Assembly: GCF_004342905.1 (NCBI RefSeq)
Contig: NZ_SMAN01000001.1
Coordinates: forward strand, 399,437 to 463,436
Reading direction: 5' to 3'
Length of the DNA stretch: 64,000 nt
Origin: Melghiribacillus thermohalophilus
Lineage (GTDB): Bacteria > Bacillota > Bacilli > Bacillales > Alkalibacillaceae
In this document: one piece after another, positions 6,319 through 11,269 of the stretch
How positions within the stretch are numbered: the first letter of the stretch is position 1
Layout of the letters: every line of letters begins with the position of its first letter
Translations under genes and position numbers: made by a program
Notes under the pieces: model-generated
What the model saw: only the letters and a program-made list of their open reading frames with translations
Database searches by the model: none
Told to the model about the DNA's origin: nothing

Positions 6319-6344
6319 TTTTGGAGAAACCTATTCAAGACAGG

Positions 6345-6373
6345 CACAGTTTGACACCTTCGCACATAAGGTA
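6345..6373 (+). promoter_or_regulatory. Possible sigma-K-type promoter of sigK
   Basis: CACA at 6345-6348, 16 bases, then CATA-AGG-TA at 6365-6373, matching the mother-cell sigma-K pattern (AC ... CATAnnnTA) as I know it. It lies 45-50 bases ahead of the sigK start; sigK autoregulation is known in B. subtilis. The motif is short, so chance is not excluded. Confidence 0.4.
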
Positions 6374-6416
6374 CACATATAGGCTTTCACCTAATGTCAG
6401 GGCGGAGGTGTATGTG

Positions 6417-7121
6417 TTGTTTAGTGTACTCCAATCGATTGCCTATTTTATTAAGGAAGCCTTTTTTTTCGTCTCCTATGTCAAGAACAATGCCTTTCCG
6501 CAACCTTTGCCGCCTGAGGAAGAGGCAAAGTACCTAAAAAAAATGCAGGAAGGTGATGAGGCAGCAAGAAACAAGCTAATCGAGCACAACTTAAGGCTGG
6601 TAGCCCATATTGTAAAAAAATATGAAAACACAAATGAAGACCAGGAAGATTTAATATCGATTGGGACAATTGGATTGATTAAGGGAATTGAAAGCTATTC
6701 TCCCGACCGGGGAACAAAACTGGCTACTTATGCAGCCAGGTGTATTGAAAACGAAATTTTAATGTTTCTCCGTTCCCAGAAAAAATCGAAAAAAGATGTT
6801 TCCCTTCAGGACCCGATCGGTCAGGATAAAGAGGGAAATGAAATTTGTTTAATGGATATCCTTAAAGCAGATCATCCGGACATTGTAGAACGTATTCAGA
6901 CCAGCATGGAAATTGAAAAGATTCATCAATACTTAAACGTCCTGGATGAGCGGGAAAAAGAGGTGATTATTAAACGATATGGCCTACAGTCCGATCGGGA
7001 ATGCACGCAGAGAGAGATTGCGAAACAGCTGGGGATATCGAGAAGTTATGTTTCCCGAATTGAAAAGCGGGCATTGATGAAAATTCTTCATGCATTTTAT
7101 AAGCGGGAAAAAGAAAAATAG
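6417..7121 (+). CDS. sigK: RNA polymerase sporulation sigma factor SigK
   Basis: Late mother-cell sigma factor, about 234 residues. The N-terminal pro-sequence-like hydrophobic stretch ([30 protein letters not shown]) is followed by region 2 ([29 protein letters not shown]) and region 4 with a helix-turn-helix ([22 protein letters not shown]). In known SigK the pro-sequence is removed by SpoIVFB. The start is TTG 6417 or GTG 6414 behind GGAGGTG at 6404-6410; the open frame further upstream is not coding. The gene is continuous, with no skin-like insertion. BofC, encoded at 57.2 kb, acts in the same signalling pathway. Confidence 0.95.
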
Positions 7122-7192
7122 GTACTTATCCTGTACACCTCACCTATAGATGCATATCTTAATACAAAGTGCAAAAAGTGAGGTGAATGACC

Positions 7193-7315
7193 TTGTCCTT
7201 TGTAGGTTATCCATACTATTTCCCGGCATATGGATATGGAGGATTTGGGTTCGGGTTACTGATTGTCTTACTTGTCCTTTTACTCGTTCTTGGTGGTTTT
7301 TATTATTTCACCTGA
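7193..7315 (+). CDS. YjcZ-family sporulation peptide (small gene)
   Basis: A 40-residue peptide: a Tyr/Gly/Pro-rich head (YPYYFPAYGYGGFGFG) followed by a single very hydrophobic helix (LLIVLLVLLLVLGG) and a short FYYFT tail. This is the layout of the YjcZ family of tiny sporulation-associated membrane peptides. TTG 7193 has GAGGTG at 7180-7185 at good spacing; ATG 7187, in frame, is too close. It lies 71 bases downstream of sigK on the same strand and ends just before a hairpin. Expression by SigE or SigK is an inference from its family and position. Confidence 0.75.
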   Translation: MSFVGYPYYFPAYGYGGFGFGLLIVLLVLLLVLGGFYYFT

Positions 7316-7391: not shown

Positions 7392-8087
7392 TTAAATATC
7401 CTTCAACATTTCCATAATTAACTGAGCGGAATGTTGTGCAGCCTGACTTAAATATTTTTCAAAGGAAATGTGCGATTCTTTTCCTGCAATATCCGACAGA
7501 GAACGGACAATCACAAACGGCGTCCCATATTGATAGCAAACCTGGGCAATAGCTGCCGCTTCCATTTCCGCAGCCTGCATGTCTGGAAATTGTTTTCGAA
7601 TGAACTCAATCCTTCCTTCCTCATTCATAAACGAATCCCCGGTGGCGATTAAACCTTTTACAGCTTGAATACCTTTTATACTTCCTGCCGCTGATATTGC
7701 CAGGGAAATAAGTCTTTCATCAGCTTCATAATGAGGCGGCATCCCGGGGACCTGTCCATACGCATAGTTGAATACCGTGACATCGACATCATGGTGCAGG
7801 ACCCTGTCAGAAATAATGAGATCACCCACTTCCAGTTCCGCTGAAAAACCCCCGGCCGACCCAGTATTAATGACATAATCGGGATGATACCTCTCATGCA
7901 ATATCGTTGTAGACATGGCAGCATTGACTTTGCCAATCCCTGACTTTAACAGGATTACTGCCTTTCCTTTCAGGGTCCCTTCAAAAAATTGACATCCTCC
8001 TTTGGTTATCTCACGCTGAATATCCATTGATTGTTTAAGCAGTTCCACTTCTTCGTCCATTGCTCCAATAATTCCAATTGTCATCAT
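7392..8087 (-). CDS. mtnN: 5'-methylthioadenosine/S-adenosylhomocysteine nucleosidase
   Basis: Hydrolyses MTA and SAH to adenine plus the methylthio- or homocysteinyl-ribose, in methionine salvage and the activated methyl cycle. 231 residues, normal length. Seen: GAMDEEVELL at the N-terminus with the catalytic glutamate, NTGSAGGF in the middle, and VRSLSDIAG near the C-terminus with the catalytic aspartate. Starts as ATGATG; the first ATG overlaps the true end of yrrS (ATGA), so the two genes were built for coupled translation. In B. subtilis, as I recall, mtnN follows yrrS/yrrT; a yrrT-like methyltransferase gene is not present here. Confidence 0.95.
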   Translation of the reverse strand: MMTIGIIGAMDEEVELLKQSMDIQREITKGGCQFFEGTLKGKAVILLKSGIGKVNAAMSTTILHERYHPDYVINTGSAGGFSAELEVGDLIISDRVLHHDVDVTVFNYAYGQVPGMPPHYEADERLISLAISAAGSIKGIQAVKGLIATGDSFMNEEGRIEFIRKQFPDMQAAEMEAAAIAQVCYQYGTPFVIVRSLSDIAGKESHISFEKYLSQAAQHSAQLIMEMLKDI

Positions 8088-8823
8088 TCTTCCTCGCTTT
8101 CACCATTTGATTCAAACCGATATTTTTGATCATTTTCCTTGAGCACTTCTACTTTAACCGGCATCCAACCTTCTTCCGTCACCCATTCCACATAAACCCT
8201 ATAAATTTGATTCTGGGCGTTATTGGTTACCGTTGCTTTGACTTTTTGTGGACCCCCTCCATTTTCAACCCACCAGGAATCATGTCCCCTTCCTGTAAAC
8301 CGGTGGCATAACGAATCGCCTTAAGCATTTCCTGCCAGTCCAGGGAATTTTTATCATAAGTCGTAACATGGGGCTCTTCCTGTTCTGTGCCAACAGGTTC
8401 CCAGTCTTTAACGATGACTTCCTGTACATTATCATCCGGATGTTCATCCCTCGTCATCTCTTCACCGGATTGATCCTCATCGGACGAATCAGGCCTGTCC
8501 AGATCCATCTCATCATCATTTTCTGTTAACTGATTATCCGTTTCGTCTTCAGAGGAGTCTGGAAGTGAATCATTTTGTTCTTCGTTTTCTCCTTGATCGC
8601 TCTGGCTTTCACCAGACTGACTTTCCTCTTCTACAACAGGGTCATCTGACTTGCTGGCAGTTTCCGTGTCCTCATCCTCATTAAAGATAAAGAAAGAAAT
8701 GAGTAAAACTGCGAGAATCCCACTGACCCACAATAGCCGGTTTATATTTTTCGTCTGTTTCCTTCGCTTTTCATAGCGTTCGATTCTGGATTCTTCATCA
8801 TGGAAAAAATCATCCGGTGACAT
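8084..8823 (-). pseudogene. yrrS: yrrS-type DUF1510 membrane protein gene with a -1 base frameshift
   Basis: YrrS-like protein, co-located with pbpI and mtnN as in B. subtilis. Frame one (start ATG 8823 behind GGGAGGAG) gives a cytoplasmic basic head, one membrane helix (LLWVSGILAVLLISFFIF), a long Asp/Glu/Ser-rich stretch and the beginning of the conserved domain (DWQEMLKAIRYATGLQEGDM), then runs out of frame at 8227. The rest of the domain continues in another frame: WWVENGGGP, VKATVTNN, IYRVYVEWV, EEGWMPVKVEVLKEND, ending at a TGA at 8084-8086. One missing base near 8276-8283 explains the break; repaired, the protein would be about 246 residues. It may be a real mutation or a sequence error. 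Confidence 0.85.
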
Positions 8824-9032: not shown

Positions 9033-9272
9033 ATGAAGTATACGACATTTGACGCGCAGAAATGGAATCTCACCACCTTTAAAAAGATCGGCTATGACCG
9101 GGAAAAAAAGAATTTATATATTTATTTTTATACGGGGAATATCCTTGAGTTCATAAATGTAAACGAAAAAGATGTGTTCCAGCTTGTAATCAGTACGGAA
9201 AAAGAAAGATATATCCAGGAAATGAAATCAACGTATGACTTCATCCATCATCCGCGATCATCCCTTGCCTGA
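9033..9272 (+). CDS. KTSC-domain-like small protein
   Basis: 79 residues. The layout FKKIGYDREKKNLYIYFYTGNILEF...VFQLVISTEKERYIQEMKSTYDFI resembles the KTSC fold family (beta strands with a conserved G-Y-D and a C-terminal helix); the function is unknown. ATG 9033 has GAGGTGAT ten bases upstream. It is the only plus-strand gene inside a long minus-strand block, and its last 25 bases overlap the 3' end of pbpI on the opposite strand. It separates pbpI from yrrS, which are adjacent in B. subtilis as I remember it. Confidence 0.65.
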   Translation: MKYTTFDAQKWNLTTFKKIGYDREKKNLYIYFYTGNILEFINVNEKDVFQLVISTEKERYIQEMKSTYDFIHHPRSSLA

Positions 9273-10978
9273 AGAAACTTTACCATTTCTTCATAGATCC
9301 GGAGCACCTGCGGCTGTTTTTTCTGATTTAGCCCGACTACAACGAGGGCATATTTGGGCTCTTCATAGGGAAAAAAACCGGCCATCCAGTGGTGGGTAAG
9401 ATCCTCCTTCCCTGTTTCAGCTGTTCCTGTTTTTCCTGCCACCGGGAGACTGTTCAGGGATCTGGCGGTGCCTTTTTCGACAACCGATCGAAGCAGAGAG
9501 GTCATTTTCTTCACAGTTTCCCTTTTTAAGCCTCTATCTTTAATCTGTTCCTCAAAGGAGTGCATCGTGGTTCCATTTTTATATACTATTTTTCTGGCTG
9601 CAAGTACCTCCTTCTGGATTCCGTGATCGGCAATGGTGGCCATCATATTCGCTACCGCCAGAGGAGTTGCCCGGACTTCCTTTTGCCCAATAGCCGTTTG
9701 ATGGATTGCCTTTTCCGCCAGCCGGTCATATGGATCTCCCCATATGTTTCCCGTTTGTTCTGCCGGGAAATGTTGAAAATGTTTAATCCTGAACAGATCC
9801 CCTGTCCAGCCTGCAGGTCCAAGTATGCCAAGTCTTTCCGCGTATTGATCAAGGATTTTCTCATCTTCCTTCATCAGTTCCTCTGCTAATTCCGCAAATG
9901 TGCGGTTACAGCTAAAGGTGAAGCTCTCTTCAAAGTTCAATTTCCCCAGCTTGCGTTCTGAATCCCCATCGCCGTAAACATTTTGGTCGCAATTGAATGT
10001 CCGTTCAAATACATCATCCATATTCTCGATTGCCGCTGCAGCTACGACTGTTTTAAAAACGGAGCCAGGAAAGTGGGCTATAAGAGCCTGATTTTTGATA
10101 CTCCCATCCTGATAAGGATGATGTTCGTTGATCTGAGGGCGGCTGACCATCACAAGTACTTCTCTTGATTTTACATCCAGTAAAACGAGTGCCCCATTTC
10201 CAATCGAATAATCATCCATTAACTGTTCAGCTTTTTTTTGTAGGGTTAAATCCAGAGTGGATTGCACATTGACCGGAAAAAAAGAATCTGATTGTCGGGC
10301 GTATCGATAATTGTAGCCGAACAAAGGAGTCCCTCTGGCATCGACATGAAACAAAACTTTTTCATCGCCCTTTGAAAGCAAAAAGGAGTCAAAAGCACGC
10401 TGAAGCCCTGAAATGCCTACTTTTTTCTCTTCGCTTTCTGAACGGTTACTTCCATAACGTTTCTGATAAAGGTCCGGATTTTCCCGGACAAGACCGACAA
10501 AATGTTTTCCAACCAGCGGGTCTCTGGAATTTTTGATTTCAACAGGGACGAAAAAGGGGATATTTACCTGACGGAGAGCCTGAAACTGTTCTTTATCCAT
10601 ATCCACCTGAATTTTTTCTGATAAAAAATATGGTTTTTTAGTCGATTCAGATAGAAACGCTAACTTTTCCGGAGAAATATTGATGATCCGGGCAATCTTT
10701 TCTACAGACCACGTATAGCTATCTGAAAAAGGAAATACAATGACGTCGTATGTTTTGCGATTTGTAATTGGCTCCCCATGACGGTCTAGAATCGTACCCC
10801 TCCCCGAAAAAAGCTGAAGTTCATATGCCCGCTGTTTTACACTCTCTTCGAGCAAATTCACCCGGTTCGGTCCAAATGAAGTCACCGAAAACAACTGGAT
10901 ATCCCCTAAACGGTACAAAAGAACCCCAAAAAGTAACGTTAGTGCAATTGTTAATATATAAACACGTCTTACTTTCAT
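9248..10978 (-). CDS. pbpI: Peptidoglycan D,D-transpeptidase, class B PBP (PbpI/PBP4b type)
   Basis: Cross-links peptidoglycan peptides outside the membrane. 576 residues: N-terminal membrane anchor (VYILTIALTLLFGVLLY), dimerisation domain starting at GRGTILDRHGEPIT, then the transpeptidase domain with all three active-site motifs: SVFK in FPGSVFKTVVAAA, SCN in TFSCNRTF, and KTG in VAGKTGTAETG. ATG 10978 is preferred (GGTGAG seven bases upstream); ATG 10993 would add five residues. In B. subtilis the orthologue yrrR/pbpI is forespore-expressed; that is family knowledge, not visible here. Confidence 0.92.
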   Translation of the reverse strand: MKVRRVYILTIALTLLFGVLLYRLGDIQLFSVTSFGPNRVNLLEESVKQRAYELQLFSGRGTILDRHGEPITNRKTYDVIVFPFSDSYTWSVEKIARIINISPEKLAFLSESTKKPYFLSEKIQVDMDKEQFQALRQVNIPFFVPVEIKNSRDPLVGKHFVGLVRENPDLYQKRYGSNRSESEEKKVGISGLQRAFDSFLLSKGDEKVLFHVDARGTPLFGYNYRYARQSDSFFPVNVQSTLDLTLQKKAEQLMDDYSIGNGALVLLDVKSREVLVMVSRPQINEHHPYQDGSIKNQALIAHFPGSVFKTVVAAAAIENMDDVFERTFNCDQNVYGDGDSERKLGKLNFEESFTFSCNRTFAELAEELMKEDEKILDQYAERLGILGPAGWTGDLFRIKHFQHFPAEQTGNIWGDPYDRLAEKAIHQTAIGQKEVRATPLAVANMMATIADHGIQKEVLAARKIVYKNGTTMHSFEEQIKDRGLKRETVKKMTSLLRSVVEKGTARSLNSLPVAGKTGTAETGKEDLTHHWMAGFFPYEEPKYALVVVGLNQKKQPQVLRIYEEMVKFLQARDDRG

Positions 10979-11269
10979 GATCTTCTCACCCATTATCCAT
11001 TTTCGCCGTTCTCATGTTTTTTAAACAATCCAACAGGGAAATGAGCAATTCGTATGCTTTTACCCCTGAACGGGTGAGAAGCCTTTCATGCAGCAAGAGC
11101 ATGTTTGAATCTGAACCGGCATGATTTAAACAAGAAAAAAAAAGCGCCCCCGCCCCCTTAGCCTCGAGCCGCCGAAGACTATACAGAAGCTGTCCGTGTC
11201 ACCGGGTGGCCGAAGCGGCTCAATAGGAAGAACGCTGAAGCTGGGTCAATACAAGTGGTCCTCATCCCT
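10979..11269 (-). other. Intergenic region with a protein-like open frame upstream of pbpI
   Basis: About 290 bases between pbpI and the greA terminator. On the minus strand one frame is open from about 11204 to the stop at 10986-10988 (about 70 codons) and reads like protein (GQLLYSLRRLEAKGAGALFF, then LHERLLTRSGVKAYELLISL), but its only start codons are ATG 11102 (38 codons left) and later ones, with no ribosome binding site. A poly-C/poly-A stretch (11139-11159) and a 7-bp inverted repeat GAGCCGC/GCGGCTC also occur. It could be a decayed gene, a repeat relic or noise. Confidence 0.3.

Follow-up and report, generated by a model that had tools for sequence, protein, structure and literature searches.

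A one-base frame break in the yrrS (ragB) gene upstream of mtnN in Melghiribacillus thermohalophilus

The yrrS-mtnN locus

The window, a stretch of 64,000 nucleotides from Melghiribacillus thermohalophilus, carries on its minus strand, in this order, genes of a class B penicillin-binding protein (PBP; 10993..9248), YrrS (8823..8227) and MtnN (8087..7392). The features of the locus are as follows:

9248..10993, minus strand: class B penicillin-binding protein gene, upstream of yrrS (PF00905, PF03717)
9033..9272, plus strand: small gene with a KTSC domain, located between yrrS and the class B PBP gene
8227..8823, minus strand: yrrS (ragB) as found, 198 aa, stop codon TAA at 8229-8227; it encodes a cytoplasmic SRIERYEKRRK stretch, one hydrophobic segment, an acidic low-complexity linker, the first half of DUF1510 and an out-of-frame tail
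8276..8280, minus strand: site of the one-base shortage in yrrS, from alignment with relatives
8084..8275, minus strand: yrrS remnant, second half of DUF1510, out of frame, ending in TGA 8086-8084
8092..8095, minus strand: Shine-Dalgarno-like GAGG of mtnN, 4 nt before the ATG at 8087 and 7 nt before the ATG at 8084
7392..8087, minus strand: mtnN, 5'-methylthioadenosine/S-adenosylhomocysteine nucleosidase, 231 aa, intact (TIGR01704, 321.8 bits, cut-off 73.8)
6321..7121, plus strand: sigK

The class B PBP gene, identified by its PF00905 and PF03717 matches, adjoins yrrS, as expected of the YrrS/RagB family, and occupies the position of pbpI (yrrR) in the B. subtilis gene order as given in the relevant part of PMC6335420. 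The yrrS gene is preceded by the Shine-Dalgarno-like sequence GGGAGGAG, and its region is single-copy in the genome of M. thermohalophilus. The motif, putative membrane segment and acidic linker of YrrS were spotted by eye in the translation and can be aligned with relatives. A KTSC gene is also present at the equivalent place in the sister genome (G001), with 56% identity. A small ORF (window positions 7187-7315, plus strand) between sigK and mtnN encodes a glycine/tyrosine-rich, hydrophobic peptide of 42 aa, which we take to resemble a small YjcZ-type spore protein.

The reading frame is broken within DUF1510

The initial annotation of this DNA had described a DUF1510 domain split across two frames, with one base missing near 8276-8283, and profile matching, also across the whole genome, bore this out: the yrrS ORF (8823..8227, minus strand) covers DUF1510 profile positions 3-60, the other frame (WWVENGGGP...YRVYVEWV...GWMPVKVE) covers positions 48-93, and each half alone clears the Pfam cut-off. 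Since both halves do so separately, and DUF1510 lies in a single frame in all 21 other genomes of the family, the break is not a chance feature. The YrrS/RagB family is defined by a DUF1510 in one frame; in M. thermohalophilus the domain is split over two, and the gene was therefore counted as a disrupted family copy rather than an intact member. DNA alignment with the sister genome contains one single-base gap, after ATGATT and directly before the TGG TGG codons, which places the shortage at 8276-8280; here M. thermohalophilus has five bases and the sister and intact relatives have six, the exact base being ambiguous. The shifted frame does end in a TGA (8086-8084) that overlaps the first mtnN ATG at 8087, and the actual stop codon TAA (8229-8227) lies 139 nt from this ATG, in agreement with the distance of about 140 bases given earlier.

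Both frames are open together for 94 nt (8320-8227), a stretch in which programmed -1 recoding could join them, and CAAAAAG at 8248, the most plausible of four A-site-only slip candidates, could slip weakly. However, no in-frame X_XXY_YYZ heptamer is present in 8320-8227, and CAAAAAG comes after the WWVENGGGP codons, which a slip at this site would leave misread. The two-frame arrangement was moreover found in 0/21 relatives of the family. Given the lack of a slippery heptamer where both frames are open, and the single-frame genes of the relatives, recoding is very unlikely to account for the arrangement. Restart of translation within the remnant was also considered and rejected, as none of the candidate start codons in its frame (GTG 8191, GTG 8182, ATG 8164, GTG 8146) is early enough to yield the missing half.

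To estimate what the truncation removes, DUF1510 of the sister was modelled from 54 sequences, drawn from 64 yrrS loci with near-duplicates and one broken gene (L038, see below) left out. The model (pLDDT 94.7, pTM 0.87) predicts a helix (residues 25-38) and four strands (45-52, 58-65, 71-79 and 83-92). The break falls after domain residue 46, where strand 1 has just begun, and essentially all four predicted strands are lost, so that the sheet would be unable to form and the extracellular C-terminal domain of the truncated protein, judged from this model, probably cannot fold. Searching the model with Foldseek gave no match at E values up to 0.001, and the best VIA-align hits (Z 6.8) were to designed sheet proteins of cystatin fold, with unrelated folds ranking next. 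Comparison of the DUF1510 sequence profile with solved structures likewise returned nothing relevant; the designed protein 8g8i scored 8.3e-12, with no stretch passing alone.

Occurrence of the break among relatives

A set of 80 named loci was fetched via their mtnN genes, and yrrS was found nearby in 43. By the test used, a break was apparent only in one of these (four of the 43 were without a match to the N-terminal half and were assessed solely by open frame and alignment). In this locus (L038:4561-5040), from the draft genome of Gracilibacillus boraciitolerans JCM 21714, yrrS apparently shifts frame near the end of DUF1510, at a different place, and the change appears to be either a second independent break or a draft error.

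At the level of the order, a DUF1510 match is present in 397/397 genomes. The best score of M. thermohalophilus (5.0e-17) is the weakest among the matches listed, the next being 5.4e-20. A full-span, single-frame domain was checked among the matches listed and in 41 re-examined genomes with at least two matches or weak scores, the remainder of the 397 having one match each. None of these 41 has the domain split side by side in two frames; their second matches are far apart or on other contigs. A literature search found no report of such a frameshift in yrrS.

DUF1510 also occurs at the C-terminus of LytR-CpsA-Psr (LCP) proteins of 480-550 aa, composed of LCP, acidic linker and DUF1510, in four genomes from two other families of the order (L134:2236-3828, L135:2218-3852, L136:2504-4144 and L137:2876-4324, all on the minus strand; Pfam-confirmed in two, read from the translation in the other two). 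Its presence on LCP proteins suggests that DUF1510 is a general extracellular wall-related domain.

Recent mutation or assembly error

Differences between M. thermohalophilus and the sister at codon positions 1/2/3 number 10/5/22 in the 46 codons before the break and 10/4/23 in the 55 codons after it, a pattern which points to both halves having been under purifying selection up to very recent times. Since the two distributions are alike, the break should be either recent or an assembly error, and a decayed pseudogene was rejected for the same reason; halves as short as 46 and 55 codons do not allow a moderately recent loss to be dated. Comparison with other members of the family agrees only loosely: over the C-terminal half, most of 20 relatives match M. 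thermohalophilus less well than they match the sister, with a shortfall of usually 1-3 residues out of 52-56. This small deficit, were it a sign of early relaxation, would count against a recent loss.

Alternatively, an error of sequencing or assembly could account for the missing base, in which case the organism carries an intact gene. The break is unique to M. thermohalophilus, being present in 0/21 relatives, the remnant appears fully constrained, the assembly is a draft of 46 contigs, and the second apparent break, elsewhere in DUF1510, was also met in a draft. On the other hand, 8276-8280 is not a long homopolymer, and genome completeness is 99.88% with a contamination of 0. Comparison of 179 kb with the sister contig, which took in shared ORFs of at least 80 aa with matches of at least 50 bits, gave three candidate breaks among 292 sister ORFs with matches, and yrrS was the only genuine one, the two others being antisense or tRNA-region shadow ORFs. 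The reverse comparison, of M. thermohalophilus ORFs against the sister, gave four candidates, none of them genuine (three were inspected; the fourth is a shadow-ORF region). With yrrS as the sole genuine frame break over the 179 kb examined, indels are not widespread in the assembly, and an error-ridden assembly is not supported. We rate a local error as somewhat less than an even chance, and lean slightly towards this strain having lost a single base from yrrS/ragB in a recent, isolated deletion, with the truncated product tolerated. Altogether, the break looks like an ordinary, recent frameshift at strain level or else one sequencing error, not a new mechanism.

Consequences for mtnN

It had further been proposed that termination ahead of mtnN could lower its translation. 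The geometry behind this proposal stands, as the shifted frame runs into the mtnN start, the actual stop lies 139 nt upstream, and in most relatives yrrS immediately precedes mtnN; lowered translation through lost coupling, however, finds no support in conservation. The mtnN gene has its own GAGG (8095-8092), and a second ATG, at 8084, follows the first at 8087. When a script placed each mtnN start at the closest start codon, only 2/64 loci holding yrrS (L010 and L014) had an overlap of the two genes; the distance between them is 27 nt in the sister genome, and for 10 of the 43 named loci it amounts to 354-1143 nt. The mtnN start region folds no better than shuffled sequences (z -0.09), and promoter-like sites are no more frequent than expected by chance, which is uninformative either way on a separate mtnN promoter. 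A strong cut in mtnN expression through broken translational coupling is therefore improbable. Loss of coupling is possible, but judging from gene spacing in the relatives, it would not be a conserved feature for the frameshift to destroy; little effect on mtnN is expected, and a mild effect on its translation is possible.

RagB function and tolerance of the truncation

YrrS has been renamed RagB; in the part of PMC12457691 that concerns it, the protein is described as an interaction partner and booster of the SEDS polymerase RodA in B. subtilis, and as required once PBP1 is absent. The same part reports that deletion of ragB by itself leaves B. subtilis with wild-type appearance and normal growth, that RagB 15-120, without the C-terminal domain, substitutes for full-length RagB, and that the membrane segment and disordered linker suffice, the C-terminal domain being dispensable. 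The GpsB-binding motifs of B. subtilis YrrS are SRYENR and NRDKRR according to the pertinent section of PMC6335420, and the portion of a double-CRISPRi study that deals with yrrS (PMC12716459) ties the gene to division via ezrA and GpsB. SRIERYEKRRK of M. thermohalophilus YrrS resembles these motifs, and the genome contains three transglycosylase (class A PBP), four SEDS and two DivIVA/GpsB genes.

If the deletion is real, translation would yield a 198-aa protein with a GpsB-binding-like N-terminus, a membrane segment and a disordered linker. Loss of the C-terminal domain would presumably be tolerated, since the retained parts suffice in B. subtilis and class A PBPs are kept; RagB function would be reduced or unchanged, with a mild phenotype, and mtnN would still be translated from its own ribosome-binding site, with an at most mild effect. 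The conservation of DUF1510 across the order stands against a tolerated loss: its presence in 397/397 genomes argues that the C-terminal domain matters in nature, though dispensable in the laboratory. The idea that a strain in nature gets by on a truncated, working RagB, reduced to N-terminus, membrane segment and disordered linker, is tentative and rather doubtful. If true, it would mean that the conserved DUF1510 can be lost outside the laboratory without losing RodA boosting.

The yrrS gene will be annotated as a pseudogene, though the part sufficient in B. subtilis remains encoded. The chief use of the break may be as a natural test of RagB truncation, matching an engineered one; if the deletion is real, it would bear on why DUF1510 persists throughout the order despite being dispensable in the laboratory.

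Comparison with known systems

Like YrrS/RagB of B. subtilis (DUF1510, PF07423), the locus has DUF1510 and an adjoining class B PBP gene, and its product has a short N-terminus, on the cytoplasmic side, that carries an SRxxR-type motif, along with a putative single membrane segment and a putative disordered linker. It differs in that the C-terminal domain is broken by a one-base frameshift, mtnN comes directly after yrrS, and the PBP gene and yrrS are separated by a KTSC gene on the opposite strand. With the engineered RagB 15-120, as presented in the corresponding part of PMC12457691, the M. thermohalophilus product has in common that the membrane segment and linker are kept and that no foldable C-terminal domain is present. 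In contrast to the engineered protein, however, the predicted natural product retains the cytoplasmic N-terminus, and adds a DUF1510 fragment and an out-of-frame tail.
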